DNA of 46,879 bases from a virus: the IMG/VR virus record IMGVR_UViG_3300021379_000384, positions 1 to 46,879 of that record. One strand, 5' to 3'. Shown piece by piece: positions 3,768 to 33,114 of this stretch. Below the pieces are notes generated by a model. That model saw only the letters and a list, made by a program, of their open reading frames with translations. It had not been told where the DNA came from and ran no database searches. A program made the translations under genes and the position numbers. Each line of letters begins with the position of its first letter. The first letter of the stretch is position 1.

Positions 3768-5312
3768 ATGCAAGAAGTTAAGCTAGTGAAAGACCTGGCC
3801 TTTGGCAATACTGCTAGAGGCCAGATACTAGCTGGTGTAGAGAAATTGACTAACGCAGTTAGTTCAACTCTTGGCGCTAGCGGTAAATGTGTAATACTGG
3901 AAGATGAAAACGGAAAACCAGTTATAACCAAAGATGGAGTTACAGTTGCTAATTCTGTTACACTATTAAATCCATTAGAAAATATTGGTGCAACGCTTAT
4001 TAAAGAAGCTGCACAACGAACAGTTAAAGACGCAGGTGATGGTACTACAACAGCGACAGTACTAGCACAAGCTATATTAGAAGAATTTGAGAAACATGAT
4101 CAAGCTGATAGCTTAAGAAATATAAAAGATGGAATTAATACTGCTGTGGATAATGTTGTCAAATATCTTCAAAAGAAAAGAAAAAAAGTTAGTGGTAAAA
4201 AGATTGATCAGGTTGCGACTATATCAGCTAACAATGACAAGGATTTAGGAAAGATTATAGGTGATGCTTTTAGATTAGTAGATGAAACTGGTATTGTTAT
4301 GATGGAAACAAATGAAAATCCAGAAACAACAGTTGAACTAATAGAAGGTGTACAATATAATAGACCACTTAAAAACAAACACTTTATAACAAACAAAGAA
4401 AAAGGTACTTGTGAACTAGATAATCCTTTAGTTCTTATAGTAGAATCTCAAATAGCAAATATAAGAAAAATACAATCAGTATTAGAATATGTTATAAAGA
4501 ACAATAAAAGCTTACTTATTATAGCAGATGTAGATACGCAAGTATTAAACGCGTTAGCAATGAACAAGCTAAAAGGAAACATTAAGGTAAATGTAATTGA
4601 TGCTCCTATATTTGGCTTAGGTAGAAAAGAAGTGTTAAGTGACTTATGTGATGTAACTGGAGCTACATTATTAAATGAAGATCTAGGTGATGATATAGAT
4701 TTGATACAACCAGAACATTTAGGCACATGCTTAAAATCAATAACTGGTAATGATCTAACAGTGCTACAGGTTGATTTAAAAGATAATGAAAAAGTAGAAG
4801 AAACTATAAGCATACTTAATAAGCAAATAAAAGATTCTTCAAACAACAATATTAAATCTAGATTAGAAAAAAGATTAGGTAACTTAAAAGCTAAAATGGC
4901 TATAATACGTGTAGGTGCTAATTCTGAAGTTGAGTTAAAAGAAAAACAAGACAGAGTTGAAGATGCTATATGCGCTACTAAAGCCGCTATAAAACAAGGG
5001 ATAGTCTCAGGTGGTGGAGTTGCTTTATATAATGCCTCTCAAAAATTAACGCCAAAAAATATAGGTGAAGAGGTTTTATATTGTGCAATAAGAAAGCCAT
5101 ATGAAACAATACTATCTAACGCAGGTATAGAAAATATAACACCTGAAGGTGAAGGTAAAGGATTAGATGTGGTTACAGGAAAAACGGTTGATATGGCTAA
5201 AGCCGGTATAATTGACCCTTTACTAGTTACTAAAAGTGCACTTGTAAATGCGGCTTCTGTAGCTACTACTATAATGTCTACTGATTGTGTAATTAATAAT
5301 ATCAGGGCATGA
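3768..5312 (+). CDS. groEL: GroEL-like group I chaperonin (Hsp60), phage-encoded
   Basis: An ATP-driven protein-folding ring subunit of 514 residues (bacterial GroEL about 548). Equatorial ATP-site motifs are intact: TLG at 34-36, ITKDGVTVA with Asp56 (E. coli Asp52), GDGTTTATVLA with Asp91 (Asp87), catalytic Asp399 in VEDA (Asp398), GGG at 415-417 and IIDP with Asp483. The apical domain is clear from LLIIADVD and IDAPIFG, but substrate and GroES contacts differ: the YLSPYF motif is replaced by YNRPLKNKHF, and Leu234 corresponds to Gln236. Pro33 of the nucleotide loop is Ala37. The C-terminus stops at NNIRA without the Gly-Gly-Met tail. It overlaps groES by ATGA. It probably folds phage proteins such as the capsid or giant proteins; the client is unknown. 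Confidence 0.95.
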   Translation: MQEVKLVKDLAFGNTARGQILAGVEKLTNAVSSTLGASGKCVILEDENGKPVITKDGVTVANSVTLLNPLENIGATLIKEAAQRTVKDAGDGTTTATVLAQAILEEFEKHDQADSLRNIKDGINTAVDNVVKYLQKKRKKVSGKKIDQVATISANNDKDLGKIIGDAFRLVDETGIVMMETNENPETTVELIEGVQYNRPLKNKHFITNKEKGTCELDNPLVLIVESQIANIRKIQSVLEYVIKNNKSLLIIADVDTQVLNALAMNKLKGNIKVNVIDAPIFGLGRKEVLSDLCDVTGATLLNEDLGDDIDLIQPEHLGTCLKSITGNDLTVLQVDLKDNEKVEETISILNKQIKDSSNNNIKSRLEKRLGNLKAKMAIIRVGANSEVELKEKQDRVEDAICATKAAIKQGIVSGGGVALYNASQKLTPKNIGEEVLYCAIRKPYETILSNAGIENITPEGEGKGLDVVTGKTVDMAKAGIIDPLLVTKSALVNAASVATTIMSTDCVINNIRA

Positions 5313-5569
5313 AAGCAATAGGTAAGTATATAGTAATTGATCCTATAAAAGAAACCGAAACTAAAACAAAAGGTGGATTAATACTAGCAGAAGCACAAAG
5401 AGAAGATGTACGATACAGGCGTGCTAGAGTTGTAAAACCAGGTACAGACGTCAATACATTAAAGGTTGATGATGAAATATATTATGACAAGTCAGCAGGG
5501 TTTAATATTGACATTAAAAACAACAATTATAAGATAATAAAAGAGTTTGATGTTGTAGTTGTATTATGA
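5309..5569 (+). CDS. groES: GroES-like co-chaperonin (Hsp10)
   Basis: An 86-residue lid protein for the neighbouring chaperonin; E. coli GroES has 97. The mobile loop runs about residues 15-33 and holds TKGGLIL, where L24-I25-L26 matches the hydrophobic tripeptide (IVL in E. coli, IIL in T4 gp31) that docks on the GroEL apical domain. The beta-barrel return KVDDEIYYD and C-terminal YKIIKEFDVVVV fit the family. The roof loop appears short. It overlaps groEL by 4 bases, giving order groEL-groES, the reverse of the usual bacterial operon, and overlaps the next gene by 4 bases. Loop and apical changes may have co-evolved so that the pair works independently of the host. Confidence 0.9.
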   Translation: MKAIGKYIVIDPIKETETKTKGGLILAEAQREDVRYRRARVVKPGTDVNTLKVDDEIYYDKSAGFNIDIKNNNYKIIKEFDVVVVL

Positions 5570-6000
5570 GAAAACTTACATCAGAAGACTTGAGAGATCT
5601 GCATTTATTAAAACATTATCGTATTATACGTAAATGGGCATGCAAAACCTGTAATATTAAAGAAGCAGATCTTGAGTTATTAATATATTTAAACGCTATA
5701 GATTTATTTACCAAAGATGATTTTAAAAAAGGTACGTACTCATATAGCTGGGATAACAGGCGCTGGAACAGATTATTGAAAGAGGGTTGGATAAAGGTGT
5801 GGAGAGAGAGAAATCGCACTACTCAAAAATTTAATATCTATAAAGTTTCCGTAAAGTGCAAACAGCTAATTAGTCGTATGTACCGAATCATGTTGGGTGA
5901 AGAAGATATGCCAACTGGTAAATTAGAAAAAAGCAATAGATATATTTATAAAGTAACAACAAAAGCTGTTCAATACGTTAATAAAGATAAGACAAGATGA
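5566..6000 (+). CDS. Winged-helix-like putative DNA-binding protein
   Basis: A 144-residue basic protein. Residues about 32-105 have the shape of a MarR-type winged helix: helix NIKEADLELLIYLNAIDLF, a Trp/Arg-rich region (SWDNRRWNRLLKEGWIKVW) that would contain the recognition helix, a basic wing (RERNRTTQKFNIYKV), then a long helix VKCKQLISRMYRIMLGEE. The C-terminal tail is Lys-rich. It is coupled to groES and to the next gene by ATGA overlaps, so it is translated with the chaperonin pair. It may regulate late transcription or bind virion DNA; both are inference. The fold call is from pattern, not a search. Confidence 0.6.
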   Translation: MRKLTSEDLRDLHLLKHYRIIRKWACKTCNIKEADLELLIYLNAIDLFTKDDFKKGTYSYSWDNRRWNRLLKEGWIKVWRERNRTTQKFNIYKVSVKCKQLISRMYRIMLGEEDMPTGKLEKSNRYIYKVTTKAVQYVNKDKTR

Positions 6001-6491
6001 ATAATAAAAATAACATAGCTCCATCTCGGTTTTTACCAGGCGCACTAACAAACGCACTTGCAACTAACGCTGGCCAAGAAGCTTTAAAGTCAATGGGTGG
6101 TGAAGTAGCTAAAAAAGGTTTAGGTGGAATACTGGGTAAAGCAGCAGGTAGCATTTTAGGTAAAAATCCAATAACGATGGGTTTAGGTGCTGTTGCAGGT
6201 GGTTTAGGTGGATTCTTAGATGCAAGGCAAGAAGCTAAAGCAGCGGGAGAAAAACTAACTTTTAAAGGAGCTATTGACGACGTATTGTTAGGAGCAGGTA
6301 AAGGAGCTTTAAATCCTTTACAAGGTGGTATTGGATTAGTAAAAGAAGGTATAGAGTCACATCAGCAAAATAAAGAAATAAACGAAAACATTGCAAACTC
6401 TGGTGATGCTATGCAAAATGCAAGTTTAAATCAATACCCTGTATTTGATCCATTATCAGCCGCCACAATGAAAAGTCTTTTTGTAAAATAA
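5997..6491 (+). CDS. Gly/Ala-rich hypothetical protein, possible virion component
   Basis: A 164-residue protein whose residues about 35-75 are Gly/Ala-rich (KKGLGGILGKAAGSILGK, then GLGAVAGGLGGFLDA). This amphipathic, glycine-zipper-like stretch is common in phage internal or membrane-active virion proteins. The N-terminus has a motif-like APSRFLPGALTNAL, and the C-terminal 45 residues are helical and polar. No signal peptide or catalytic residues are seen. It overlaps the winged-helix gene by ATGA. A role in the virion or in membrane penetration is possible but unproven. Confidence 0.6.
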   Translation: MNNKNNIAPSRFLPGALTNALATNAGQEALKSMGGEVAKKGLGGILGKAAGSILGKNPITMGLGAVAGGLGGFLDARQEAKAAGEKLTFKGAIDDVLLGAGKGALNPLQGGIGLVKEGIESHQQNKEINENIANSGDAMQNASLNQYPVFDPLSAATMKSLFVK

Positions 6492-11175: not shown

Positions 11176-14100
11176 ATGGGAACAGTATTTAGAAATCCAC
11201 ACTGGTTAGTACCAGATAATGCCAACAAAACTAGGAAAGCAAACTATAGTTTAAATTTTGATTCTGGTTCTAATGACTATATTGAGATATCAAACAATAT
11301 ATTAAGCGGACTTTCAAATTTTTCTATATCTGTATGGTATAATACAAATACACTGTCAGGCGACAGAGCTGTGCTAGGAGCTTGGAGTTCAGGAGTTACA
11401 CAAATGTTATTATATTGGGATGATCCAGATGGTTGGAGGTTTTTAATGAATAATGGAACTACTTCATACAGCGTTATTTGGGGAACTTCAACAACTATTA
11501 ATACATGGAATCATATAGTCGTAACTTATGATGGATCAACAATTAGTTTTTATCATAATAATGGTACTCCAGTAACAGCCATAGGTACAGGTTCAATAAG
11601 AACTCAAACAGTTCCTTGGAGAATAGGCGTAGACACTAGTAGTACTCGATATTGGGACGGTAAGTTAAGTCAATTTTGTTTATTTAATTATGCTTTAAAT
11701 GCTAGTGATATTTCAACTCTTTATGGTGATGCTACAAACGGCGTTGGCGATCCACTTTCTTTAACTACGCCTCCAATTGCATATTACCCACTTGGCGATG
11801 AATTAGTTTATAATGGATCTAGCTTTTTAGTTCCTAATATGGTTGGATCAAATGTAGGTAGTAGTAATTTTTTATGTACAGAATTTGATGGTATAAATGA
11901 TTCTATAGATTGTAGTAGTTATATAAAGTATAAAAATACAGCGGGAAGTATACCTTGGCCTGCGCTTGAAGATGATTGGGTTGTATCTTATTGGATGAAA
12001 ACTTCTGGAGCTGGTAGTCAATTTAGAAATATAACTGGTGGTGATGGATTTTTTCAATACGCAAACACAATGTATCTTGGAGCGCTAAGATTTAGAACTG
12101 GTAGTAGTTGGATTAACGTTAGTGGAAGTGTAAACTTAGAAGATAATCAATGGCATCATATTGCAATACAATGTGAAGGTGGTACAACGCATAGATGTTA
12201 TATAGATGGAGTTCAAACTTATGAAAACACTGGTAGCGCTTTTTCAAGTAGTGGATCAATTACTTACATAGGTTCTTATTCTGGCGGAGGACAACGTTTT
12301 TATACAGGTAAATTATCACAACTCGCTATGTTTGACGTTTCTAATGTTAGTATTTCGGACTTGTATAATGGAGGAGTTCAACCAAATATACAAAATTTTG
12401 ATAATTTAATTTTTTTAGCAGATTTAGGTAAAAACGCTGAATTAGTTCATGGTGGCTTACATTATCGTGATACTGTACAAGAAGAGTTTTATCCATCAAA
12501 AAATTTTTCTTGGGAAGCATTAAAAGGTGATTCACCTAACGGTAGCAGCGCTTCTGGAGTTGGCGTGTCAATACCAGCTACAGCTTTAGAGTCAGAAGGC
12601 CCTTATTCAATTAACAATATAATAAGTGCAAACTCTGATGGCTTTAGTCAGTTACTTCCATTTGGAGCTGATCAAGCTGCTGTTGCTGACCCAAGTAAAC
12701 TAAATGTTTTAGTACAACCTGGTTTATACGAAGCAGGAGGTTTAACTTGTAGATTCATAGCAGGAAGTGTGTCAGCTGGAGCTACTATAGATTGGGGAGA
12801 TGGTAGTGGTGAACAAACTTTGCTTAGTGGAAATAACGATCATACATATTCAACAGAAGGTATATATAATGTAAAAATCGGAGGTACTTTCTCTCCAAAT
12901 ATTAATTCAAATCTCTATGGATTAAATTTTATAAATATAACACATTTTGGTGACAATGTTGTACATCCTACAATGTATGTTGGTTGGAGATTATGTTCTA
13001 ATCTAGATATAACAGCATATGACACCCCAACTATTAGTAGTGGTGGCCAATTAGGTTATTGCTTTCAAAATGGAAAAAGACTTGTAAATGCTAATGGATC
13101 AATGGGTAATTGGGATATGTCAAATCTAAATTCTTCTTTTCCATCTGTTTTTCAAAATTGCACAAGATTTAATGTAGATATATCAAGATGGAATTTACCA
13201 TCCACTCCTAGTTTAGATAGTACTTTTCAAGGTTGCGCAACATTTAATCAACCTATAGGCGAGTGGAATATATCACCAAGTAATGTGAGAAATTTGTTTT
13301 ATCAAGCCTTTAAATTTAATCAGCCACTAACTAATTGGACTATACCTGCAAGTTTAAGCGGAACGTTTAGGCAAGCTCATGCTTTTAACTCATTTCCCGG
13401 GACACCAGCCGGCACTTTTACTAGTATGTATTATGCTTTTAATAATGCATATGTGTTTAATCAAGATATAAGTAGTTGGGATGTAAGTGGTGTCACTAAC
13501 TTCACAGCTTGTTTTCAAGGTACAGATGATTTTGATCAACCTATAGGTAGCTGGACAATAAACACTACGCCTGGTGCAAATATTAATATGACGGCGATGT
13601 TTTACGATGCTCCTGGTTTTAGTCAAAATATATCTACTTGGGATATGTCTGAAGTTAGTGTTATCACGGAGTTTGGAAAGTATAATTATGGAGATGGTTT
13701 TCCTTCTCCTGGAATAACAACTGATAAAATTACATCACTAAGTCAAATTTGTAGAAACACTAACAGTAATTCATCTTGGTTTACAAGTATTGATTGGTCT
13801 AATGTAACTAGTATTTACTACGCGTTTAATAATAACTATACTTTAAATCAAGATTTTGGCGATGTAGATATATCATCATTAACAAACGCTATAGCTAGTT
13901 TCAGTGGTACTTCTGCTTTTAGTACTAGTAATGTTACTAGCACGTTAACTAAATGGGCTATTAAAGTTTATAATGGCAATGGTAACACAGGTGTTAATGC
14001 AACATCTATATTCAATAGTAGAACATTTGATAATTCACAAACTAGTGACACAGGTGGAACACCATTTCCTTTTCCAACTAATTTTAGTTTAAGTATAGGT

Positions 14101-14712
14101 GGTTCACCTGATTTAACAGGAGGCGGTGATTATTGTAAAGTTGTTGATGTTTCAGGTGATAATCAATTAGAAGGTAAAGATATGTTTTCTAGTTCAACAG
14201 CTGGAACAGATTATGTAGAACTATTAACTAGAGAAATAGGTGGTAGTGGTTCAGATGTTTCTGTTACAATACCTTATTATTGGAATCATAATCCAAGCAT
14301 AGCTTCTACAACTGGTTTAACTGCTGATTATAAAATAGATGGTGGATCTTGGACTAACTTTATAAATGATACAACATCAAGTGGATCAGGAAGTAGCAGT
14401 GGTACAAACGCTTCACCTGTATTAGGTTCTGTAGCAAGTTTATCTTTTACAACTTCTTTTCAAGTTAGACTTAGGATACAAACAGGTCAAGCAACGGCTA
14501 ATACTTGTAATGTTAAGTCAATAACTATAGCGGATGGTGTTGCTAATATATACACAGAAGATTTTTCAACACAGTTAGGCGTTGGTTATGACGATGGATT
14601 AACTTCTCCTAATGCAGTATGGTCAGATGCTGGTGACGCGCTTGATTGGTTAGATAGTTCTACTGGAGGTAATTGGTTAAGTGTAACAAGTGGATTAACA
14701 AGAATAAATTAA
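11176..14712 (+). CDS. Large adhesin: two LamG-like domains, PKD-like segment and BspA/DUF285-like repeats
   Basis: A 1178-residue modular protein. LamG-like domain 1 spans about 22-190 (NYSLNFDSGSNDYIEI to LSQFCLFNYALNASDI), domain 2 about 229-400 (CTEFDGINDSIDCSS to KLSQLAMFDVSNVSI). A PKD-like strand set at about 535-568 has IDWGDGSGEQ and HTYSTEGIYNVKI. From about 580 to 930 are repeats of roughly 25-35 residues with FNQPI/FNQDI, SSWDVSG and WxIxxxxN cores, the pattern of BspA-type leucine-rich (DUF285) surface proteins. A Ser/Gly/Thr-rich beta region ends the protein. It likely attaches the virion to the host surface; no signal peptide or anchor supports secretion. Confidence 0.85.
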   Translation: MGTVFRNPHWLVPDNANKTRKANYSLNFDSGSNDYIEISNNILSGLSNFSISVWYNTNTLSGDRAVLGAWSSGVTQMLLYWDDPDGWRFLMNNGTTSYSVIWGTSTTINTWNHIVVTYDGSTISFYHNNGTPVTAIGTGSIRTQTVPWRIGVDTSSTRYWDGKLSQFCLFNYALNASDISTLYGDATNGVGDPLSLTTPPIAYYPLGDELVYNGSSFLVPNMVGSNVGSSNFLCTEFDGINDSIDCSSYIKYKNTAGSIPWPALEDDWVVSYWMKTSGAGSQFRNITGGDGFFQYANTMYLGALRFRTGSSWINVSGSVNLEDNQWHHIAIQCEGGTTHRCYIDGVQTYENTGSAFSSSGSITYIGSYSGGGQRFYTGKLSQLAMFDVSNVSISDLYNGGVQPNIQNFDNLIFLADLGKNAELVHGGLHYRDTVQEEFYPSKNFSWEALKGDSPNGSSASGVGVSIPATALESEGPYSINNIISANSDGFSQLLPFGADQAAVADPSKLNVLVQPGLYEAGGLTCRFIAGSVSAGATIDWGDGSGEQTLLSGNNDHTYSTEGIYNVKIGGTFSPNINSNLYGLNFINITHFGDNVVHPTMYVGWRLCSNLDITAYDTPTISSGGQLGYCFQNGKRLVNANGSMGNWDMSNLNSSFPSVFQNCTRFNVDISRWNLPSTPSLDSTFQGCATFNQPIGEWNISPSNVRNLFYQAFKFNQPLTNWTIPASLSGTFRQAHAFNSFPGTPAGTFTSMYYAFNNAYVFNQDISSWDVSGVTNFTACFQGTDDFDQPIGSWTINTTPGANINMTAMFYDAPGFSQNISTWDMSEVSVITEFGKYNYGDGFPSPGITTDKITSLSQICRNTNSNSSWFTSIDWSNVTSIYYAFNNNYTLNQDFGDVDISSLTNAIASFSGTSAFSTSNVTSTLTKWAIKVYNGNGNTGVNATSIFNSRTFDNSQTSDTGGTPFPFPTNFSLSIGGSPDLTGGGDYCKVVDVSGDNQLEGKDMFSSSTAGTDYVELLTREIGGSGSDVSVTIPYYWNHNPSIASTTGLTADYKIDGGSWTNFINDTTSSGSGSSSGTNASPVLGSVASLSFTTSFQVRLRIQTGQATANTCNVKSITIADGVANIYTEDFSTQLGVGYDDGLTSPNAVWSDAGDALDWLDSSTGGNWLSVTSGLTRIN

Positions 14713-15255: not shown

Positions 15256-15475
15256 TGTAATTAGAAAAATTAGTATAGGCTCTGATTATAAAAACGATGC
15301 AATGCATTACTCAATTGGTCAAGAAGTTTATGGTGGTCACAAGATATGCGATATAATAAGTAATAATAATGATGGGGAGTATTTAATATACATAACTAAA
15401 AATAATGAAGTATTACCTTGGAAAAAGTTTAATCGCAATATGGCAATAGCTGTTGAATATGATTTACAATATTAA
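15248..15475 (+). CDS. Small hypothetical protein (75 aa)
   Basis: The start at 15248 (aaaATGACTAATG) gives MTNVIRKISIGSDYKNDAMH and an 8-base overlap with the previous gene; an ATG at 15224 would add eight residues and a longer overlap. The protein has a beta-rich look: YSIGQEVYGGHKICDII, then GEYLIYITKNNEVLPWKKF. It might be a small SH3-like or OB-like domain. No family is recognised. The stop shares a base with the next start. Confidence 0.55.
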   Translation: MTNVIRKISIGSDYKNDAMHYSIGQEVYGGHKICDIISNNNDGEYLIYITKNNEVLPWKKFNRNMAIAVEYDLQY

Positions 15476-16068
15476 TGAGAAGTTTGTATGAGTTTATTAT
15501 TAAACCTAAAAAAGAAAGGTATAATAATAAAAAAAAGATAGATAACAAAGAATTAATATTAAACACCAGTATTGATAACCACGAATTTGTAAGTAAAGAA
15601 GCTATAGTTGTATCTACACCTATAGCTTTTGATACTGATATAAGACCAGGTGATACAGTTTTTGTTCATCATAATTTATTTAGAAGATGGTATAATATGA
15701 AAGGTGAAGAAAAAAATTCATCTAAGTATTTTAAAGATGATCTTTACTTTTGTAATTTAGAACAAATATATATGTATAATGGCAAATGTCATTTAGACTA
15801 TTGCTTTGTATCTCCTATAAAACAAGTTAACGGTTTTAACGCATCTAAAGAGCAAGAGCATTTTGGGATATTAAAATATTCTAACAAGTCCTTAGAACGC
15901 GTAGGATTACACCCTGGAAAGCTTGTAGTCTTTACACCTAACTCTGAGTTTGAGTTTGTTATAGACGGTGAAAGACTTTATTGTATGAAATCAAATGATA
16001 TAGCTATAACCCATGAATACGAAGGAAACGAGAAAAAATATAATCCAAGCTGGGCGCAAGGCAGTTGA
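15475..16068 (+). CDS. Protein with a possible GroES-like beta-barrel, next to the terminase
   Basis: A 197-residue protein. Residues about 40-75 (VVSTPIAFDTDIRPGDTVFV) and 140-185 (GLHPGKLVVFTPNSEFEF, then DGERLYCMKSNDIAITHEY) each resemble the strand, GD-turn, strand pattern of Hsp10. The closing pair, an IDGxxLY strand and a SNDIAI strand, is like the GroES dxxLiixesDIla ending. Between them is an insertion with VHHNLFRRWYN and a SSKYFKDDLYF segment. If real, this is a second co-chaperonin-like protein, or an independent use of the fold in assembly. The resemblance is by eye and could be coincidental. Its 3' end overlaps the next gene by 56 bases. Confidence 0.45.
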   Translation: MRSLYEFIIKPKKERYNNKKKIDNKELILNTSIDNHEFVSKEAIVVSTPIAFDTDIRPGDTVFVHHNLFRRWYNMKGEEKNSSKYFKDDLYFCNLEQIYMYNGKCHLDYCFVSPIKQVNGFNASKEQEHFGILKYSNKSLERVGLHPGKLVVFTPNSEFEFVIDGERLYCMKSNDIAITHEYEGNEKKYNPSWAQGS

Positions 16069-16294
16069 TGAGCTAATTAAAGTAGCTGAAGAAAAAATTA
16101 TTACACATACTGATGATGATGTATCAGCGGATCGTTTAAAAAACGCAGCAGCAACAAAAAAGCTTTGCATAATGGATGCTTTTGAAATACTACAACGTAT
16201 TGAAGAGGAAGAAGCTATATTAAATGGTGAAACAAAAGAAACTAAAAAGGAAGAAAGAAGTTTTAAAGGTTTTGCAGAAGGGAGAAGTAAGTGA
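16013..16294 (+). CDS. Small protein directly before TerL, small-terminase candidate
   Basis: A 93-residue, wholly helical protein with a basic first helix (TRKNIIQAGRKAVDELIKVA), a middle DDVSADRLKNAAATKKLCIM and an acidic tail. The helical layout, small size and place just before the large terminase fit a small terminase subunit or packaging accessory, but a helix-turn-helix is not obvious. The start ATG lies inside the previous gene, a 56-base overlap. It ends in TGA overlapping the GTG of the large terminase. Confidence 0.45.
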   Translation: MNTKETRKNIIQAGRKAVDELIKVAEEKIITHTDDDVSADRLKNAAATKKLCIMDAFEILQRIEEEEAILNGETKETKKEERSFKGFAEGRSK

Positions 16295-18516
16295 GTTACG
16301 AGCAAACACTTTGGAAAGAAATACCAGACGTTATAAATCCTAAATATCTTAAAAAACAAAATAGATATAAGAAGTGGGAATATGGTTATAACGCTGAGTA
16401 TGATTTTGTTTGTATAAGTAAAAATGGTACTATTGGATCGATCATCGAAATACAAAATCTCCGCATTGCTTTACCAGCAGCAAATGAACCGTATAAACGA
16501 GGAGAAACAAAGAAGGAACAATATTGGGAAAGATTTGAATACCCAAAAGAATTACAAAGAATAAAAACAAGATTTGATTGGGAGGAATATCCAGTTGATT
16601 TCAAAGAAAAGTGGTACGATTATATAGATGAAGAATTTAAACGAAGAGAAGAAGGTTTTCATTTCTACAACAATGGCAATCCTGTATATATTACTGGTAC
16701 TCATTACATGTACTTGCAGTGGTCAAAGATCGATGTCGGAGCACCTGAATATAGAGAAGCAAATAGATTATTCTTTATATTTTGGGAAGCGTGTAAAGCA
16801 GATAACAGATGTTACGGAATGTGCTATCTCAAAAACAGACGGTCTGGTTTCTCCTTTATGGCATCAGCAGAGCTTGTCAACATGGCGACAATATCAAGCG
16901 ATTCAAGATTTGGTATATTATCCAAGTCAGGAGCAGATGCTAAAAAAATGTTTACAGATAAAGTCGTGCCAATATCCGTTAACTATCCGTTTTTCTTCAA
17001 GCCGATCCAAGATGGTATGGACAGGCCAAAGACTGAGTTGGCATATCGTGTTCCGGCATCAAAACTTACTAGAAGAAAACTGGAGGAAAATGTTAAAGCT
17101 ATAGATCTACAAGGTCTTGACACAACTATTGACTGGAAAAATACAGGTGATAACTCTTATGATGGTGAAAAGCTAAAGTTACTAGCTCACGATGAAAGTG
17201 GTAAATGGGAAAGACCTGATAACATATTAAACAACTGGAGAGTTACAAAAACTACGTTACGTCTAGGATCTAGAATTGTAGGTAAATGTATGATGGGCTC
17301 AACATCAAATGCTTTAGATAAAGGTGGAAACAACTTCAAAAAAATCTACTACGATTCAGATGTTACTAAAAGAAATAGAAATGGACAAACAGCTTCTGGA
17401 CTCTACTCTTTATTCATACCTATGGAGTGGAACTACGAAGGATTCATGGATTCTTATGGACTTCCTGTCTTCACAACGCCAGAAAATCCAGTCCTCAGTG
17501 TCGACAATACGCCAATTACAATTGGAGTCATCGAGCACTGGGAAAACGAAGTTGAAGGATTAAAGTCGGACCAAGATAGTTTAAATGAATATTATCGTCA
17601 GTTTCCCCGCACAGAGCAACACGCGTTTAGGGATGAAACAAAAGATAGTTTATTTAACCTAGTAAAAATATATGAGCAAATAGATTATAATGAAGAATTA
17701 AATAACCTAGCTAATGTTACGCAAGGTAAATTTATATGGGAAGGTGGAATAAGAGATACTAGAGTTACATTTGTTCCAGATGAAAGTGGAAGATTTAGAG
17801 TTAGTTGGGTTCCAAATAGAATTATACAAAATAATGTAATAATAAAAAATGGAATCAAATATCCTGGTAATGAACACGTGGGCGCGTTTGGTTGTGACCC
17901 TTATGATATATCAGGAACTGTGGATGGTAAAGGATCTAATGGTTCACTTCATGGCCTTACTAAGTTTTCAATGGAAGATGCTCCACCTAATCATTTCTTT
18001 TTGGAATATATAGCTAGACCTCAAACAGCTGAAATATTTTTTGAGGATGTACTTATGGCTTGTGTATTTTATGGTATGCCAATACTTGCTGAAAACAATA
18101 AACCAAGATTATTATATTATTTTAGACGTAGAGGTTATAGAGGTTTTAGTATGAACCGACCAGATAAAGTTTGGAACAAACTATCTTTAACAGAAAAAGA
18201 AATAGGTGGTATACCTAACTCAAGTGAAGATATTAAGCAAGCGCATGCCGCTGCTATTGAAAGTTATATAGAAGAACACGTTGGTTTAACGTTGAATGGT
18301 ATTGGTGATATGTATCATCAAAAAACACTTAATGATTGGGCTTCTTTTAATATTAACAACAGAACAAAGCACGATGCTTCTATTAGTTCTGGACTTGCTA
18401 TTATGGCTTGTAATAAAAATAAATATAGACCTAATTTAATGAGGAATAAACAACCTATTAAGTTGAATTTTTCAACATATGATAATGATGGATTTATTTC
18501 TAAAATAAATAAATAA
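16291..18516 (+). CDS. terL: Terminase large subunit (DNA-packaging ATPase/nuclease)
   Basis: The motor that pumps DNA into the prohead and cuts it. It has 741 residues, longer than the typical 450-650. A deviant Walker A-like loop is at about 181-188 (KNRRSGFS), Walker B at 297-302 (LLAHDE, Asp301-Glu302), and a coupling-type GSTSNALDKGG at 336-346. PRTEQHAFRDET (439-450) precedes the nuclease domain, whose first acidic residue is probably Asp536 in GAFGCDPYD. It starts with GTG at 16291, overlapping the upstream TGA as GTGA. Bases about 16430-17560 show more C- and G-ending codons than neighbours, perhaps a recombined segment. The portal starts directly after its stop. The lack of an ordinary Walker A Lys-Thr/Ser is the main doubt. 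Confidence 0.85.
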   Translation: MSYEQTLWKEIPDVINPKYLKKQNRYKKWEYGYNAEYDFVCISKNGTIGSIIEIQNLRIALPAANEPYKRGETKKEQYWERFEYPKELQRIKTRFDWEEYPVDFKEKWYDYIDEEFKRREEGFHFYNNGNPVYITGTHYMYLQWSKIDVGAPEYREANRLFFIFWEACKADNRCYGMCYLKNRRSGFSFMASAELVNMATISSDSRFGILSKSGADAKKMFTDKVVPISVNYPFFFKPIQDGMDRPKTELAYRVPASKLTRRKLEENVKAIDLQGLDTTIDWKNTGDNSYDGEKLKLLAHDESGKWERPDNILNNWRVTKTTLRLGSRIVGKCMMGSTSNALDKGGNNFKKIYYDSDVTKRNRNGQTASGLYSLFIPMEWNYEGFMDSYGLPVFTTPENPVLSVDNTPITIGVIEHWENEVEGLKSDQDSLNEYYRQFPRTEQHAFRDETKDSLFNLVKIYEQIDYNEELNNLANVTQGKFIWEGGIRDTRVTFVPDESGRFRVSWVPNRIIQNNVIIKNGIKYPGNEHVGAFGCDPYDISGTVDGKGSNGSLHGLTKFSMEDAPPNHFFLEYIARPQTAEIFFEDVLMACVFYGMPILAENNKPRLLYYFRRRGYRGFSMNRPDKVWNKLSLTEKEIGGIPNSSEDIKQAHAAAIESYIEEHVGLTLNGIGDMYHQKTLNDWASFNINNRTKHDASISSGLAIMACNKNKYRPNLMRNKQPIKLNFSTYDNDGFISKINK

Positions 18517-20958
18517 ATGATAGAAACTAGTTATGGAAGTTCATTTCCGGATCAGGTAGTACCTGATGCAGTAAAAGCATCTTATGATTATGGTTTGAAA
18601 GTAGGACAAGCTATAGAAGGCGAGTGGTTTGGTGGTGCAAGAGCAGGTGTTGGAGGATATAGGTTTGCTACAAATTATAATAATTTTCATCAACTAAGGT
18701 TGTATGCTAGAGGTGAACAGTCAATACAAAAATATAAAGATGAATTATCTATTAATGGTGATTTGTCTTATCTTAATTTAGACTGGACGCCAGTACCAAT
18801 TATATCTAAATTTGTAGATATAGTTGTAAATGGTATGTCACAAAGAAATTATGATATAAAAGCATATGCTCAAGATCCTACATCTAGCAGCAAAAGAACT
18901 AGATATGTAGAAGGATTAATGAAAGATATATATGCTAGAGAATATATTGCAAAAGCTAAACAACAATTAGGTATAGATGTTTCATCAAAAGGTGTTGAAG
19001 GAGATTCACCTCAAAATCCTGATGAAGTGTCAGTATATATGCAATTAAATTACAAACAAGGTATAGAAGTTGCTCAAGAAGAATTAATTAATCATACATT
19101 AGATTATAACAAATATGATTTAATAAGACGTAGATTAAATTATGATTTAACTGTATTAGGTATAGCTTGTTCAAAAACTAATTTTAATTTACAAGAAGGT
19201 ATAACGGTAGAATATGTTGATCCTGCTAATCTTGTTTACTCATATACAGAAGATCCTAACTTTGAAGATTTGTGGTACGTAGGTGAAGTTAAAGGAGTTA
19301 GTATGGCAGAGCTTAAAAAACAATTTCCACATTTAACACCTGCAGAACTAGAGCAAATAGAAAAATACCCTGGTAACTCTAATTATAGAAATGATTGGAA
19401 TGGTAGGTATTACGATGATAAAATTCAATTATTATATTTTGAATACAAAACATTTACAAATCAAGTATTTAAAATAAAAGAAACTCCACAAGGTTTAGAA
19501 AAAGCATTAGAAAAAACAGATGCTTTTAATCCACCAGAAGAAGTTAACTTTAAAAAAGCTTTTAGATCTATAGAGGTATTATATACAGGTGTAAAGATTT
19601 TAGGTTTTCCTGAGCTATTAAAATGGGAAATGTCTGAGAACATGACTAGACCTACAGCAGATACTACTAAAGTAAATATGAATTACAATATTTGCGCACC
19701 TAGAATGTATAAAGGTCGTATTGATTCTTTAGTAAAACGTATTACTGGTTTTGCTGATATGATACAATTAACACATTTAAAGCTACAGCAAGTATTATCG
19801 CGTATGGTACCTGATGGTGTGTATTTAGATGTAGATGGTTTAGCTGAAGTTGATTTAGGTAATGGCACTACTTATAATCCACAAGAGGCATTGAACATGT
19901 ATTTTCAAACTGGTAGTATTGTAGGTAGATCTCTTACTCAAGATGGAGATCAAAACCTAGGTAAGGTACCAATACAAGAATTACAAAGTGGTGGAGGTAA
20001 TGCTAAAATAGCTAGCTTAATACAGTCTTATCAATATTATTTACAAATGATAAGGGATGTGACGGGACTAAATGAAGCTCGTGACGCTAGTAATCCAGAT
20101 AAAAACTCATTAGTTGGTTTACAAAAAATAGCTGCAGCAAACAGTAATACAGCTACAAGACATATACTACAAGCTAGTTTATATTTAACTTTGCGTAATT
20201 GTGAAAACATATCATTAAGAGTTAACGATGCGTTAATGTATCCATTAACAAGAGCTTCATTACAACACAGTCTTTCTAAGTTTAACGTTTCTACACTAGA
20301 AGAATTAGTAGATAAAAACATTTATGACTTTGGTATATTTTTAAGTCTTGAACCAGATGATGAAGAAAAAGCTAAGCTAGAAGAAAATATACAAATAGCT
20401 TTAAAAACTCAAAGTATAGATTTAGAAGATGCTATAGATATTAGAGAAGTTAACAACTTAAGTTTAGCTAATCAATTGTTAAAGCAAAGAAGAAATCAAA
20501 AACAAAAAAGAGAAGAAGCATTTAAGATGCAGCAGATACAAGCACAAGCACAGGCTCAAGCTGAAACTGCAGAAAAAACTGCATTAGCTGAAACACAGAA
20601 ACAGCAAATAATGACTGAACAAAAAGTACAATTTGAACAAGCTAAAGTTCAGATGGATGTAGAGCGCATGCAACAAGAAGCTCAAATAAAAGCTATGTTA
20701 ATGGAAAAACAGTTTCAGTTTGATATGCAATTAGAAACTGCTAAAGAAAGAGTTATACAAGCTAGAGTAAATAACACTGAGGATAGAAAGGACGAAAGAA
20801 TAAGAATAGAGGGAACTCAGAGAAGTCAACTTATAAACCAACAAGAAAACAATTTAATGCCTACCAGTTTTGAAAAAGACCCTATGAAAGCTAAAACTGA
20901 AGAGGCAGAACAAAACCAAGAAGGCTATTATGGAGCAAATCCATTTAGCTCTATTTAA
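18517..20958 (+). CDS. Portal protein
   Basis: An 813-residue protein forming the DNA channel at the capsid vertex, inferred from position right after terL and from sequence. Residues about 85-115 (PIISKFVDIVVNGMSQRNYD) and 225-260 (VEYVDPANLVYSYTEDP, DLWYVGEV) match the stem/wing layout of podovirus portals. A conserved-looking DVTGLNEARDASNPDKNS lies near residue 512. From about 640 to 790 the C-terminus is a Gln/Lys/Glu/Ala coiled coil (QIQAQAQAQAETAEKT), long enough for a portal barrel into the capsid. Large size fits P22-like or crAss-like portals more than T7 (536). No proteolytic motif is seen. Confidence 0.8.
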   Translation: MIETSYGSSFPDQVVPDAVKASYDYGLKVGQAIEGEWFGGARAGVGGYRFATNYNNFHQLRLYARGEQSIQKYKDELSINGDLSYLNLDWTPVPIISKFVDIVVNGMSQRNYDIKAYAQDPTSSSKRTRYVEGLMKDIYAREYIAKAKQQLGIDVSSKGVEGDSPQNPDEVSVYMQLNYKQGIEVAQEELINHTLDYNKYDLIRRRLNYDLTVLGIACSKTNFNLQEGITVEYVDPANLVYSYTEDPNFEDLWYVGEVKGVSMAELKKQFPHLTPAELEQIEKYPGNSNYRNDWNGRYYDDKIQLLYFEYKTFTNQVFKIKETPQGLEKALEKTDAFNPPEEVNFKKAFRSIEVLYTGVKILGFPELLKWEMSENMTRPTADTTKVNMNYNICAPRMYKGRIDSLVKRITGFADMIQLTHLKLQQVLSRMVPDGVYLDVDGLAEVDLGNGTTYNPQEALNMYFQTGSIVGRSLTQDGDQNLGKVPIQELQSGGGNAKIASLIQSYQYYLQMIRDVTGLNEARDASNPDKNSLVGLQKIAAANSNTATRHILQASLYLTLRNCENISLRVNDALMYPLTRASLQHSLSKFNVSTLEELVDKNIYDFGIFLSLEPDDEEKAKLEENIQIALKTQSIDLEDAIDIREVNNLSLANQLLKQRRNQKQKREEAFKMQQIQAQAQAQAETAEKTALAETQKQQIMTEQKVQFEQAKVQMDVERMQQEAQIKAMLMEKQFQFDMQLETAKERVIQARVNNTEDRKDERIRIEGTQRSQLINQQENNLMPTSFEKDPMKAKTEEAEQNQEGYYGANPFSSI

Positions 20959-22166: not shown

Positions 22167-23621
22167 ATGGGATTTGCAACAGGCGGAAGCTTCCCAGCTT
22201 CCATCGTGCCAATGCCTTCACAAGTTGCTGTAGTCGATAACTATATTGACTTCAACAATTTAGCTGGTGGACAATGGGCACAACAATATCTACCTGAACT
22301 TTACGAACAAGAGGTAGAGAGATATGGAAATAGAACGTTATCTGCTTTCCTAAGAATGGTAGGCGCTGAAATGCCTATGACTTCTGACCAAGTTATTTGG
22401 ACAGAACAAAATAGATTACATATTGCTTATGAAGGTGTAACTAGAGCTGCTGATGTATTGACAGTTACTGGTAACAACGCTGTAAGATTAAACCAAACTA
22501 TTATCATCGCTGATGGTTTTACTACTGTAAAAGCTTTAGTTGTTGATGTAACTGGCTTAACTATTACTGCTGTTCCTTACGAAGCTGCTTCATTAAACGC
22601 TTCTGGTTTAGGAACTTCAGGATTAAAACTATTTGTTTATGGTTCTGAATTTGCAAAAGGAACTAACCAAATGGTTGGATCTATTGAGCCTAATGTTCAA
22701 ACTTACCAAAACAATCCAGTAATCATTAAAGATAAATTTGAAGTATCAGGTTCTGATGCTGCTCAAATTGGATGGATAGAAGTTTCAACTGAAGATGGAA
22801 CATCAGGATACTTATGGTACTTAAAAGCTGAGTCTGAAACTAGACTACGTTTTGAAGATTACCTAGAAATGATGTGCGTTGAAGGTGTTAAAACCGCTGC
22901 TGGTTCTGGTGCAGAGCAAGCTAACTATGATGGATCTTTTGATGATACTCAATTTACCGGTAATGCTGGTGGAGGTGTATTCCCAATTGGTACTCAAGGT
23001 TTATTTGATGCTATTGAAGAAAGAGGTAACGTATGGCAAAACTTTGCTGGTGCTGCTGCTCCTGGAGCTGGTGCATTAGGAGATTTTGACGAGATCCTTA
23101 AGCAATTAGATAAGCAAGGAGCTATTGAAGAGAACATGTTATTCTTAAACAGAGCTACTGCTCTTGATTTCGATGACATGATCGCTGCTCAAGCTGGTGG
23201 AGGTTACGCTTCTACACAAGCTGCTTCTTACGGTTTATTTGACAATGAAGCTGAAATGGCATTGAACTTTGGTTTTTCTGGATTCAGAAGAGGTTCTTAT
23301 GACTTCTATAAAACTGACTGGAAATACTTAAACGATGCTACTACTAGAGGTTTGACTGCTGACATTGATGGTGTATTAGTACCTGCTGGAACTACTACAG
23401 TTTACGATCAAATGTTAGGATCTAATATCAGACGACCATTCTTGCATGTAAGATATAGAGCTTCTGAAACTGACGATAGAAGATATAAAAACTGGATTAC
23501 AGGTTCTGTAGGTGGTGCTTATACTTCAGCGTTAGATGCTATGGAAGTACACTTCTTATCTGAGAGATGTTTAGTAACACAAGCTGCTAACAATTTTGTA
23601 TTGTTTAAGTCAACTGTATAA
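22167..23621 (+). CDS. Major capsid protein
   Basis: A 484-residue protein expected to adopt the HK97 fold. Near the N-terminus VERYGNRTLSAFLRMVGAEM and PMTSDQVIWTEQNRLHI (about 50-85) form a conserved-looking N-arm/early-helix segment that recalls capsid proteins of crAss-like and other Bacteroidota podoviruses; this is memory, not a search. Beyond it are a beta-rich insertion (about 95-200), an ASYGLFDNEAEMALNFGFSGF segment and a C-terminal domain ending TQAANNFVLFKSTV. Codons end in C more often than in neighbouring genes (AAC, TTC, TAC), consistent with very high expression. The leader TAGAAATT precedes its ATG. It is followed by a capsid companion and a terminator. Confidence 0.8.
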   Translation: MGFATGGSFPASIVPMPSQVAVVDNYIDFNNLAGGQWAQQYLPELYEQEVERYGNRTLSAFLRMVGAEMPMTSDQVIWTEQNRLHIAYEGVTRAADVLTVTGNNAVRLNQTIIIADGFTTVKALVVDVTGLTITAVPYEAASLNASGLGTSGLKLFVYGSEFAKGTNQMVGSIEPNVQTYQNNPVIIKDKFEVSGSDAAQIGWIEVSTEDGTSGYLWYLKAESETRLRFEDYLEMMCVEGVKTAAGSGAEQANYDGSFDDTQFTGNAGGGVFPIGTQGLFDAIEERGNVWQNFAGAAAPGAGALGDFDEILKQLDKQGAIEENMLFLNRATALDFDDMIAAQAGGGYASTQAASYGLFDNEAEMALNFGFSGFRRGSYDFYKTDWKYLNDATTRGLTADIDGVLVPAGTTTVYDQMLGSNIRRPFLHVRYRASETDDRRYKNWITGSVGGAYTSALDAMEVHFLSERCLVTQAANNFVLFKSTV

Positions 23622-27150: not shown

Positions 27151-30100
27151 ATGGCTCAAATTAAAAGGAACTTTCTTAAATCTAAAATGAATCAAGACCT
27201 AGACGCTAGGTTAATTCAAAATGGAGAATATAGAGAGGGTAGAAACATAAACGTAAGTAGATCTGAAGGCGCAGACGTTGGTGCTCTTGAAAATATAAGA
27301 GGTAATGAAGAGTTGACTACACCTCTAATGCAAAATGATATACTAAGTGAAATAAGATCTGTTTTAGATACTAATGAGTCTTTAGAAATAATAGCTTTAT
27401 TTAAACACGATCAAACTAAATCTTTGTACGCGTTTTGCACTACGTGGATAGATAGTTCAACTAGTGGTAGAGATAATAGATTTGGTGGTCATAATTTTAT
27501 ATTACAATATCAATTAGGTGTAGATCCACTATCTGGTTCTACAAATAATAATATAAGCAAAAGACTTGTTCAAGGTTCGTTTTTAAATTTTGCAAAAGAA
27601 TTTCCTATAACAGGTTTTAATATAATAGAAGATCAATTATTTTGGACTGACGATAGAAATCAACCTAGAAAAATAAATATTAATAAAGCATTTGTAAATT
27701 CAAGTGTTTTATATACGGCTGATCCAAGATATGGTGAAGCATATTATTTTACTGAAGATCAAATATCAGTCGCTAAGTTTGCTCCGTATGAAGCTATTAA
27801 GTTTGTAAAAAATACAGGTACAATAGCAACACCTAATTGGGTTCCAACTTGGAAAAATGAAACATCAGAGTGGCTACCAGCTTCTTTAACAGCTCCTTTA
27901 AATTCAATCACAACTACATCAGGTAATGTACAATTAGTTTTTAGTGGCACACCTGGAACAGGTAACCCAGGATGGGATACTGCTATCCATGATATTGATG
28001 ATTATTGTATTAAGTCAGCTGGTAACGATTGGCCTGTTTGGAGAATAAGAAATTTTTCTAGACCAAACATAGGCCCATATTACGCGTATACCGTAAGTGG
28101 TAACACGGTTCAATTAGCAGCTGATAGAAATAATCTTACAAGTCCACTTGCGGCAGCTAGCGCTCCTAGCTGGGGAGCTGGAGAACTGATCACATTTGAG
28201 CTTTTAAATCCAGAATATCAATCGTCATTTGAAGGTGATAGAGAATATATGAAAGATAAATTTATAAGATTTAGTTATAGATTTAAGTATAATGATAATG
28301 AATATTCTTTAATGGCACCTTTTACTCAACCATTATTTGTTCCTAAACAATATGGTAGTTTTACTGTAGGAAATGAAGCTAATGCGGCTAGAAATGGTAT
28401 ATTAAAATGGTTTGAAAATTCTGTAAACTCAGCAGAACTAATAATACAATTGCCAGATAATTCTTATCAGTTTACAGATAGTAATATAAGACCACCTAGT
28501 GCTTTTCCAAATAGATATGATGTAAAAGAAATTGAAATACTACTAAAATCATCAAGTGATAATAACGTATATAGTATTGATACTATTGATTTAACAAATT
28601 CATCTTGGATAAATAATATAGTGCCACATAGTGCTACTACATGGCCATACAATAGTCAATTAAGTTATACGTATAAAGGTAGTAAACCTTTTCAAGTTTT
28701 ACCTGAATCAGATGTAATTAGAGTTAGCGATGCAGTTCCAGTTAGAGCTTTAGCACAAGAAGTTGGAGGTAATAGAGTTATGTATGGAAATTATTTAAAT
28801 GGTCATGCTGCTCCACCTAATTTAGATTACGAGTGTTCTATCACTAAAAAAGCTAGTGATTACGATGCTACCAATAATCCTCCTATATCACCTGAAGATC
28901 CTACAGTAGTTAAAGAATATTACAATAGTACACTTAAGCAAGGTAGAACATATCAAGTAGGAATTATATTAAGTGATAGATATGGTAGACAGTCTAATGT
29001 AATATTAGCTAATACTGATTTAACAACAGCGGGGAGTAATGTAAGAGATAAATCTACAGTTTTTGCACCATATGATGGTGTAGGATTAAGTGCTGGTGTG
29101 CAAGGATTTTTTGGTAATGCATTAAATGTAAACTTTGAATCAACAATTCCAAGTTCAATATCTGGATTAGAGAATTATCCAGGGCTTTTTGATAAAAGCT
29201 TAACTAAACAAGGTGAAACAAATCCACTAGGTTGGTATAGTTATAAAGTTGTAGTAAAACAAACAGAGCAAGAATATTATAATTGTTATATACCTGGAGG
29301 TTTATCTGGTATTCCTACATACAATAATACTAGCACAGACTTATCCTATACAGCAATTTACGATGTTGGTAATATTTCTTTATACGGAGATAATATAAAT
29401 AAAATACCGAAAGATACTACTGATATATCACCAACAGACAAAATGTTTGGTAGTAAAACTTCGTTATATTATAGAGTAGTTACCCCTGGATATAACGCTT
29501 CTAATCAATGGAATAATAGGGAGTTTACTCCTGTCACAGAGATTGAAGTTACAAACATACAACAATGGAATGATTTCGCGCCTTGGACAACTACTAAAGG
29601 ATCTTCATCAACTTTATATCCAGATAATGATCCAATATATAATGCTGATAAAAATCCATTTATAGCTACTTTAGACATTTCTAATTTAGAATCAAACCCA
29701 CCAAGATTATTTTTTACATATACAGATCAATACACTCCAAATTATAGATTTGCAAAGTTCCTAAATGTAGCAGAAACAAATCCAACTATATCTAATTTAG
29801 ATATATATTGGGAAACTTCTACTAGTGGGCTTATATCAGATTTAAACGCTTCAATAATAAGTGGAGATTCGAGTGGTTCACCTAAAGAATTAAGTCCTTT
29901 TATGTGGGTTTTTGAAGAGCAATATCCATATGATGGTGAAGGTACTTTACCTAGTAATAAAGGCGATTATTTACTACAACAAGATATAGGTGTTGTCACT
30001 AACGCGGGTTCATATTCTACAAATGCTAATGCTAGTATGACATTAAATAGTGTATATTCAGATACTGATCCAACTGAGGACTTAATGCGTGGTAATTCTT

Positions 30101-31341: not shown

Positions 31342-33114
31342 ATGGCAGCTACAATAGAAGTAAAATATTTTAATACATACTGGGTAAAGAAAACTGTTAG
31401 CCAAGACTATGATCAAGGCACAGGTGCTGTAATATTAAACGCACCTAATTATAATGGTGTACCTTTCTACGCTTGGAACTCAGCGTCAGCTTCTACTAGA
31501 TATTTAAATTTTTACAATGGAAGTAATAATCCTGGTGCTCCTAAAGGTGATATAGATATTACTAACGATGATAACTGGTTTATAGAAGAAGCTAGAATTA
31601 AAGGAGATTTTAACGCTGCATTTACAGATTATGGTGTTAAAGCTTATTTAGAAAACAAAAATTACGTAAGTAGAGTTAGAAAAAATAAGGTTATATATTC
31701 AGGTTTATTCAACTCTGCCACTAATGTAAATGAAACAAATGTATTTTCTGAAGCAACTAATATAACATTTACATGTCCGCCTGAATTTGGCAGCATACAA
31801 AAACTTTACTCGTCAGATACTAAACTACATATATTTCAAGAAAATAAAGTAAGTAGAGCTCCGCTAGACAAAGATATGATATACGCCGCTGATGGTCAAG
31901 GCACTGCAGTATCAACAAATACTAAAGTAATAGGGGAAATAAATCCATATGTAGGTGAATATGGTATTAGTACTAATCCTGAATCGTTTGATTTTTTTGG
32001 TAATAGAATATATTTTTCTGACAAAAACAGAAATGTTGTTTTAAGATTATCAAATGATGGCTTAACAGAAATAAGTGGATATGGTATGGCAGATTTTTTC
32101 AGGGATAAGCTAAGTGAAATAAATAATGACAAACAAACAATAATAGTTGAAGATACTGTTGATTCACAAGTGCCTGCTATTAATCCATCTCCACCTTATT
32201 ATCCTGTACCTTTACCAGTAGTGATAGGTGGTTATAGACTAGAAAAAGCAATAGCTGGTCCTAACGATAACTATGATAATGTACCTGTTGGATCTCGAAT
32301 ATTAATTAATGGTAATGAAACAGGTGTATACGTAAAAAGTGTAGACTCTGCAAATGGTAGAATATATACAACCGACTTAGTTCCAGAATATTTTGCGCCT
32401 GGAAGTACAATACAATTTGTTACATATGCACAAGACAAGATAATAGGTGTTTATGATGTGTATAATGATAACTACTTGATTAGTATTCAAAAATATAATG
32501 GCGAATATCATACTTTAGTGTATGATGAAAAGTCAGCAGGTTGGGTTACGTTTTACGACTATAAACCTATTAACGCTGACAGCATGTTTAATAGATTTTA
32601 TACTACAAACAATGATTCTATATGGGTTCATAATTCTGAAAATGTTCCAAGAAATAGCTTTTATGGAGAAAGCCCAGTTAAATCTTCTATTAAATTTATA
32701 TTTAACGATCAACCAAGTGTTGTTAAAGTATTTAAAACGCTCAACTACGAAGGTACTAATGGTTGGGAAGCATCTATTATAGAGTCAGATCCAACTGGTG
32801 AACTACTTCCAGCTTCAGGATCTTGGTCTAATCTACAAGATACTACAGCTATTATACGTAGTTATGATGAAGGATATTACGTTGAATCTGGTATACCATA
32901 TAGAGCTGGATTTAACTTAAAAGAGAACAGGTATACCGCTAATGTTGTAAATAACTCAGCTGCACAAGTAGGTGAAGTTATAATAGGGGGTCAAGCTAGT
33001 GGTATAAAAGGATATTTTACAACAGTTGTTTTACAAACGGATGATACAACAGCTGTTGGTAATACAAAGGAATTATTTTCTGTAGGAGCAGAATATGTAA
33101 TATCATCTTATTAA
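31342..33114 (+). CDS. Second tail-nozzle-like protein (590 aa)
   Basis: Starts immediately at the end of the 1396-residue gene. After a beta-rich N-terminus, residues about 140-260 contain SDTKLHIFQENKVSRAPLDK, then INPYVGEYGISTNPESFDFF and RIYFSDKNRNVVLRLSNDGL, a string of blade-like strands suggesting a beta-propeller, as in P22 gp10/T7 gp12-type nozzles. The C-terminal half holds DNYLISIQKYNGEYHTLVYD, AGWVTFYDYKPINADSMF and a closing beta domain. It likely forms the tip or lower ring of the tail. No hydrolase motif is apparent. Confidence 0.65.
   Translation: MAATIEVKYFNTYWVKKTVSQDYDQGTGAVILNAPNYNGVPFYAWNSASASTRYLNFYNGSNNPGAPKGDIDITNDDNWFIEEARIKGDFNAAFTDYGVKAYLENKNYVSRVRKNKVIYSGLFNSATNVNETNVFSEATNITFTCPPEFGSIQKLYSSDTKLHIFQENKVSRAPLDKDMIYAADGQGTAVSTNTKVIGEINPYVGEYGISTNPESFDFFGNRIYFSDKNRNVVLRLSNDGLTEISGYGMADFFRDKLSEINNDKQTIIVEDTVDSQVPAINPSPPYYPVPLPVVIGGYRLEKAIAGPNDNYDNVPVGSRILINGNETGVYVKSVDSANGRIYTTDLVPEYFAPGSTIQFVTYAQDKIIGVYDVYNDNYLISIQKYNGEYHTLVYDEKSAGWVTFYDYKPINADSMFNRFYTTNNDSIWVHNSENVPRNSFYGESPVKSSIKFIFNDQPSVVKVFKTLNYEGTNGWEASIIESDPTGELLPASGSWSNLQDTTAIIRSYDEGYYVESGIPYRAGFNLKENRYTANVVNNSAAQVGEVIIGGQASGIKGYFTTVVLQTDDTTAVGNTKELFSVGAEYVISSY

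Follow-up and report, generated by a model that had tools for sequence, protein, structure and literature searches.

Genes at the chaperonin locus and their setting

The window, the whole stretch of 46,879 bases that makes up the IMG/VR virus record analyzed here, encodes a GroEL with a GroES directly behind it and, further downstream, a second GroES-like protein next to the terminase gene. The genes on which this report centers are the following:

3768..5312, + strand: groEL, 514 amino acids from an ATG start, a group I chaperonin of a phage-specific clade (Pfam PF00118, Cpn60_TCP1, E = 1e-53; phrog_5725, E = 1e-133)
5309..5569, + strand: groES, a co-chaperonin of 86 amino acids (PF00166, Cpn10, E = 3e-12)
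15475..16068, + strand: tandem two-domain GroES-like protein of 197 amino acids, upstream of terL (phrog_13932, "co-chaperonin GroES"; AlphaFold2 model with pLDDT 80)
16291..18516, + strand: terL, terminase large subunit (phrog_6681, E = 7e-172), which places the phage near Elemovirus and Pachyviridae
22167..23621, + strand: virion structural protein of 484 amino acids (52 kDa; phrog_13704, E = 9e-97), candidate capsid protein and candidate client

The terminase was 63% identical to that of ctfjg026, an uncultivated podovirus, 45% to that of a Flavobacterium Elemovirus (elemo), 39% to that of Cellulophaga phage phi13:2 (Pachyviridae) and 37% to that of phi38:1. Additionally, the crAss-phage muzzle protein was matched in its N-terminal part by the ORF at 27151-31341 and in its C-terminal part by the adjacent ORF at 31342-33114 (PF25731, PF25729), so that the muzzle appears to be split between two genes in the window. 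From the terminase identities and the muzzle matches we conclude that the phage is a Bacteroidota podovirus and distant kin of crAss-like phages, and its relatives suggest that its host is one of the Bacteroidota as well. Relatives in culture are Flavobacterium phage elemo, Cellulophaga phages phi38:1 and Calle, and Maribacter phage Panino. The ORF at 11176-14712 encodes a protein of 1178 amino acids that carries DUF285 repeats as well as laminin-G-like domains and may be a receptor-binding protein or an adhesin.

An earlier reading of the window, made from its sequence only, had claimed that both chaperonin subunits are encoded, groEL before groES, in the order opposite to that of most bacterial operons. 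The Pfam and PHROG matches at 3768-5312 and 5309-5569 bear out both genes. The PF00118 match spans positions 1-488 of 490, placing the window GroEL in the Cpn60 family over its full length, and the PF00166 match (3-92 of 93) places GroES in the Cpn10 family. The AlphaFold2 model of GroEL (pLDDT 87) has the three-domain fold, with full-length Foldseek matches to GroEL/Hsp60 (E about 1e-47). The two genes overlap by 4 bases, and the ORFs at 5566-6000 and 5997-6491 then overlap likewise. Promoters and terminators around the operon showed no excess over shuffles.

A scan of IMG/VR gave 100 stretches with related loci, 80 of which were kept as relatives. In all 80, groES lies directly downstream of groEL, with the genes abutting or overlapping. 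In the bacterial comparison, groES was located at 75 of the 80 loci and lay upstream of groEL on the same strand in every one of the 75, which upholds the claim of an opposite order. The groEL-groES order also occurs in three annotated phage genomes (Elemovirus, Panino and ctfjg026); groES comes first in immuto and Calle. GroEL was described from 36 genomes of a Bacteroidota phage group including phi38:1 (Nishimura et al. 2017, PMC5332604), and a survey of viral metagenomes tied the order of chaperonin genes to the phylogeny of GroEL (Marine et al. 2017, quoted in PMC9611531). Given the same order in related phages and that survey, as far as the quotation conveys it, the order cannot be called novel, as the sequence-only reading had it; it is general in the phage group of the window. 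Nor is a phage with its own GroEL and GroES the exception that it was taken for, as a GroEL-like protein was found in 280 of 50,697 phage records (at least two of the 280 being bacterial contigs).

The INPHARED records "Acinetobacter phage MD-2021a" carry pckG, dgkA and acrB beside groSL, which marks them as mislabeled bacterial contigs that inflate phage GroEL counts. One contig of 40 kb (IMGVR_UViG_3300030116_004689) has two groEL and two groES genes (17982-19433, 33791-35242) and no tandem gene.

Ancestry, ATP site, apical groove and ring interface of the phage GroEL

In a tree of 71 GroEL sequences (LG+C20, IQ-TREE), the window GroEL and 20 environmental phage GroELs formed one clade (support 100/99), and all bacterial GroELs together with six other phage GroELs fell into a separate one (100/94). 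Constraining the window clade to join Bacteroidota GroEL cost 104 likelihood units, and this grouping was rejected (p-AU = 0.0005). Nesting within a host lineage, which would have spoken against the sequence-only reading, is thereby rejected, and the separate phage clade that it expected, its ATP site conserved but its apical groove altered, was recovered. Since several isolated-phage rows sit on long branches, the tree does not fix the deeper order among the phages. The ctfjg026 GroEL (40933-42561), which keeps Y199, sits on a very long branch (2.3), far from the window GroEL, despite the closest terminase, so that groEL may be exchanged or fast-evolving between close phages. The dN/dS ratio was 0.03-0.16 for GroEL (five pairs), 0.15-0.23 for GroES and 0.22-0.24 for the tandem protein. 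The groEL-groES pair is thus real and under purifying selection by this sequence measure.

Within the two genes, five features were located:

4362..4385, + strand: altered apical segment RPLKNKHF, against RGYLSPYF at E. coli 197-204 (E. coli-anchored alignment)
4473..4475, + strand: Gln236, equivalent to E. coli Leu234, a contact for GroES and substrate (PMC3514286); Gln in 79 of 80 relatives
5118..5165, + strand: shortened inter-ring contact region, E. coli 457-475, with V464-K470 deleted (alignment of 80 relatives)
5360..5416, + strand: GroES mobile loop TKTKGGLILAEAQREDVRY, with invariant G23, L26, D33, R35 and Y36 (alignment of 32 sequences)
5435..5470, + strand: short GroES roof region of 11 amino acids, against 20 in E. 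coli and 15 in Bacteroidota examples

Residues were numbered on an E. coli-anchored alignment of the 80 relatives and 79 bacterial GroELs, in which the E. coli sequence agreed with PDB 1aon. Asp56, Asp91 and Asp399, named before as retained ATPase residues, correspond to E. coli D52, D87 and D398 and are indeed kept: D87 and D398 were present in 80 of 80 relatives and D52 in each of the 78 whose sequence covers that position. The window also keeps T30, G32, T89-T91 (DGTTT), G415 and D495 (E. coli numbering). P33 and K34 beside the ATP site are changed to A and S.

The apical segment differs from that of E. coli by G198P, Y199L, L200K, S201N, P202K and Y203H, and F204 is unchanged. The sequence-only reading had seen YLSPYF replaced by YNRPLKNKHF, which is the aligned segment with two residues in front; Gln236 in place of Leu234 and the absence of the Gly-Gly-Met tail were likewise confirmed by the alignment. 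Across the relatives, three further groove residues are conserved (Met264 in 80/80, Ala263 in 75/80 and His203 in 68/80; V264M, V263A and Y203H), and the exchange Y199L is likewise a conserved trait of the clade. Y199 and Y203 are kept in all 79 bacterial GroELs. The canonical hydrophobic groove is thus missing from the window protein (Y199L, S201N, Y203H, L234Q, V263A, V264M), with only F204, L237 and L259 kept; this is a departure from canonical GroEL and no ground for removing the protein from the Cpn60 family. The apical domain was 31-33% identical to that of E. coli and Zobellia GroEL versus 43-47% for the equatorial domain, whereas E. coli and Zobellia were 65-69% identical to each other in every domain. 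The excess change therefore sits in the domain that binds clients and lid. As the residue changes are conserved across 80 relatives and groEL dN/dS is low, they are not due to chance.

The GroES tripeptide IVL touches L234, L237 and V264 of GroEL, and the exchange N265A blocks GroES binding (PMC3514286). In the phage clade, N265 was kept in 80 of 80 relatives and L237 in 79, both being needed for the lid; F204 was kept in all 80. On the side of the lid, the mobile loop of the window GroES carries a hydrophobic tripeptide after the glycine pair (GGLIL), and GGLxL is conserved in phage GroES. These sequences fit a barrel-lid contact that is retuned but working, in which the two partners would have co-adapted. 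The window GroES lacks a full roof hairpin; this feature is variable among bacteria, with 4 of 75 bacterial GroES equally short.

The span from E. coli 457 to 495 comprises 33-36 amino acids in 80 of 80 relatives versus 37-40 in bacteria. Further contact changes are Glu at R452 in the window and an E434 column that is empty in 71 of 80 relatives. The AlphaFold2 model showed no helix at the shortened region, which, together with the shortening itself, suggests a single or weakly paired ring, an oligomeric state predicted from sequence and model. The highest TM-score of the model (0.90) was to a single ring of human Hsp60, a value that reflects conformation as well and is hence only suggestive. 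Single rings have precedents in the EL, OBP and AR9 chaperonins (PMC7185714, PMC9598537).

A tandem GroES-like protein upstream of the terminase gene

The sequence-only reading overlooked the shortened inter-ring region and also the third component of the system (15475-16068), the more interesting feature, which lies 10 kb away from the pair. This protein consists of two parts:

15475..15783, + strand: N-terminal GroES-like domain with a mobile-loop-like LILN motif and invariant L27 (hhalign 55%, alignment)
15784..16029, + strand: C-terminal GroES-like domain with a hairpin in place of the mobile loop (hhalign 95.6%; hmmsearch against PDB GroES, E = 9e-4)

In the comparison with GroES by hhalign, the C-terminal half reached a score of 47.4 versus a shuffled maximum of 15 (40 column shuffles); the match of the N-terminal half was weak (score 28.9 versus a shuffled maximum of 19.9). 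The best PDB match of the model was chain R of 7ekq, the Cpn20 of the Chlamydomonas chloroplast, in an alignment that spans the whole protein (E = 1.9e-5, probability 1.00), and the matches ranked 2-31 were one-domain GroES chains throughout. The halves in hhalign and the full-length match to 7ekq chain R thus give two GroES-like domains head to tail; the full-length TM-score to Cpn20 is moderate (0.51), so that the placement of the domains may differ. Where GroES has its lid tripeptide, the N-terminal domain carries an LI[IL]N motif, spaced almost as in GroES. This hydrophobic motif occurs in the N-terminal domain only, and because the C-terminal domain has a hairpin instead of a mobile loop, we refer to the protein as Cpn20-like and not as Cpn20. 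A comparison of the N-terminal with the C-terminal half gave a probability of 13.9%, at which a duplication is not demonstrable from sequence.

Relatives of the tandem protein occur in at least 588 IMG/VR stretches, and a scan of IMG/VR with the phi13:2 protein gave copies from the same phage group only. Among 38 long related contigs, picked for carrying either groEL or the tandem gene, 33 carried groEL, groES and the tandem gene together; groEL was found in 14 of the 17 picked for the tandem gene, and the tandem gene in 19 of the 21 picked for groEL. Four Baltivirus genomes (71-76 kb, including phi13:2) have the tandem gene and no GroEL, so that a phage GroEL is no requirement for the tandem protein. 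A bacterial origin of the gene was considered and rejected: no full-length copy was found in 8 Bacteroidota or 199 Flavobacteriaceae genomes by the same search that detects the viral copies. Our literature search found no paper on a tandem co-chaperonin in phages; GenBank calls the relatives "co-chaperonin GroES".

Elemo (Flavobacterium phage vB_FspP_elemo, Elemovirus) resembles the window in its abutting groEL-groES, its small GroES, a GroEL that is about 39% identical and a tandem GroES-like gene (gp30) directly before terL. However, its GroEL keeps Y199 and L234, which makes the groove signature peculiar to the window clade. The closest annotated genome, ctfjg026 (Caudoviricetes sp., MW202828), shares the groEL-groES order, a GroES with 50% identity and a tandem gene near terL. 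The GroEL and GroES of Bacteroidota (Flavobacteriia) hosts agree with those of the window in family and domains (40-42% identity) but differ in the groES-groEL order, a groove of the Y199/Y203/L234 type, a full inter-ring region and a GGM tail. We conclude that the GroEL/GroES pair adds one more member to an already known phage group, and that the three-part set with a Cpn20-like protein varies a known kind of system in a new way.

In chloroplasts, too, a two-domain GroES-like protein, Cpn20, stands beside one-domain proteins (Cpn10/Cpn11), and together Cpn20 and Cpn10 make up seven GroES-like domains (PMC5780408), an arrangement that may serve as a model for a mixed lid. Cpn20 is only about 15% identical to the window protein, which is phage-encoded and has no mobile loop in its C-terminal domain; the likeness is one of fold and need not reflect common descent. 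T4 gp31 is likewise a phage co-chaperonin, for which an enlarged cage was proposed to accommodate the capsid protein (PMC3012670), but it acts on host GroEL and resembles the tandem protein only weakly in fold (rank 33).

A proposed phage-dedicated chaperonin and its alternatives

On balance, we favor an active, ATP-driven and lid-using group I chaperonin system dedicated to the phage, with a retuned groove, a probable single or loose ring, a probable second lid and structural proteins as probable clients. Counting against it are the Baltivirus genomes that have a tandem gene and no GroEL, the weak likeness of the N-terminal half of the tandem protein to GroES, and the fact that EL, OBP and AR9 act with no co-chaperonin (PMC9598537, PMC7185714). 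The phage GroEL would form heptameric rings that hydrolyze ATP, and its altered groove, which would have been readjusted to phage clients and to its own lid, would bind non-native phage proteins. ATP would then trigger capping. GroES would cap the ring by way of its conserved mobile loop, or else the cap would be a lid with the tandem protein as a component; the client would fold in a cage with little roof, on a ring not firmly paired. Judging from the eroded ring-ring interface, the machine is probably a single ring or loosely paired. On the model of chloroplast Cpn20, the tandem protein, encoded beside the packaging genes, probably acts as an alternative lid or as part of a mixed one.

Clients are probably structural proteins of the phage, above all the capsid protein; the 52-kDa capsid candidate is a plausible one by analogy with T4 gp23 (PMC3012670). 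The 3415-residue protein suggested before as an encapsulated client is about seven times the size of this candidate and too large; the one D.D.D motif found in it proves nothing. Of the active ring specialized for phage clients that the sequence-only reading had proposed, the clade, the ATP site and the changed groove thus stand, and the exceptionality and this client do not.

The role of the tandem protein is where a different reading has most to offer. It is quite conceivable, if not what we would expect, that the 197-residue protein is a packaging or virion protein on a duplicated GroES fold and not a co-chaperonin: in the window, as in elemo, Panino and phi13:2, its gene stands close before terL and away from groEL; neither the stretch that is conserved best (HHNIFRRWYD) nor the NPSWA tail resembles GroES, and the C-terminal domain has no mobile loop. 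Against this stand the full-length best match to a tandem co-chaperonin, the loop-like motif kept in the N-terminal domain and the co-occurrence with groEL and groES in most of the long contigs. If the two phage co-chaperonins instead mainly retuned host GroEL, as T4 gp31 does when it stands in for GroES to fold gp23 (PMC3012670), phage GroEL would be optional in some lineages. The Baltivirus genomes agree with this, having the tandem protein without GroEL and, in phi13:2, a small GroES as well. Yet the tight linkage of groEL and groES in every relative, a groove changed throughout the clade and purifying selection on GroEL make such a role improbable as the main one.

The eroded ring interface would also suit an open, lid-independent holdase with GroES as an accessory. 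The jumbo-phage proteins EL, OBP and AR9 are phage-encoded GroEL homologs that do without a co-chaperonin and can take the form of a single ring (PMC9598537, PMC7185714), and EL has an altered substrate cleft and altered ring contacts (PMC7185714). The window, by contrast, encodes a GroES linked to its GroEL as well as a tandem protein. Every relative likewise has a linked groES whose mobile loop is intact, and the residues N265 and L237, which lid binding requires, are retained. The window GroEL has the usual length and shares about 40% identity with bacterial GroELs, whereas EL-like matches are partial and reach 24-28% identity. We therefore give this explanation little credence. The groEL-groES pair might, finally, be a recently captured host groESL operon, rearranged and decaying. 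Since all hosts, as far as is known, have GroEL and GroES, a donor would always have been at hand. Recent capture is nevertheless ruled out by the tree and the AU test (p-AU = 0.0005), and decay into a pseudogene by omega values well below 1 and by full-length relatives, with order and groove conserved in 80 contigs; we regard such an origin as extremely unlikely.

For the favored phage-dedicated system, we put forward one extension tentatively: the ring would be served by two kinds of lid, GroES and a Cpn20-like protein of an origin independent of plastids. Mixed or stacked as caps, the two could give the capsid protein a larger or differently tuned cage, and in lineages without GroEL these lids would cap host GroEL.

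The characterized phage chaperonins EL, OBP and AR9 are lidless, and T4 gives the host barrel a lid; the group of the window has a barrel and a lid of its own. Should the tandem protein prove to be a co-chaperonin, the two-domain lid of chloroplasts would have arisen a second time, in viruses, in hundreds of environmental phage contigs. The changes at the client and lid contacts are conserved within the group, and relatives are in culture; one can thus ask which proteins of a phage require a chaperonin of their own, and the co-evolution of barrel and lid is open to direct study. In one sub-clade of the groES alignment, the mobile loop reads GGLELAEKHR, with Glu for a hydrophobic residue, alongside the GroEL segment STCKTPHFYTN; in this single such event seen, lid and groove may be shifting together.
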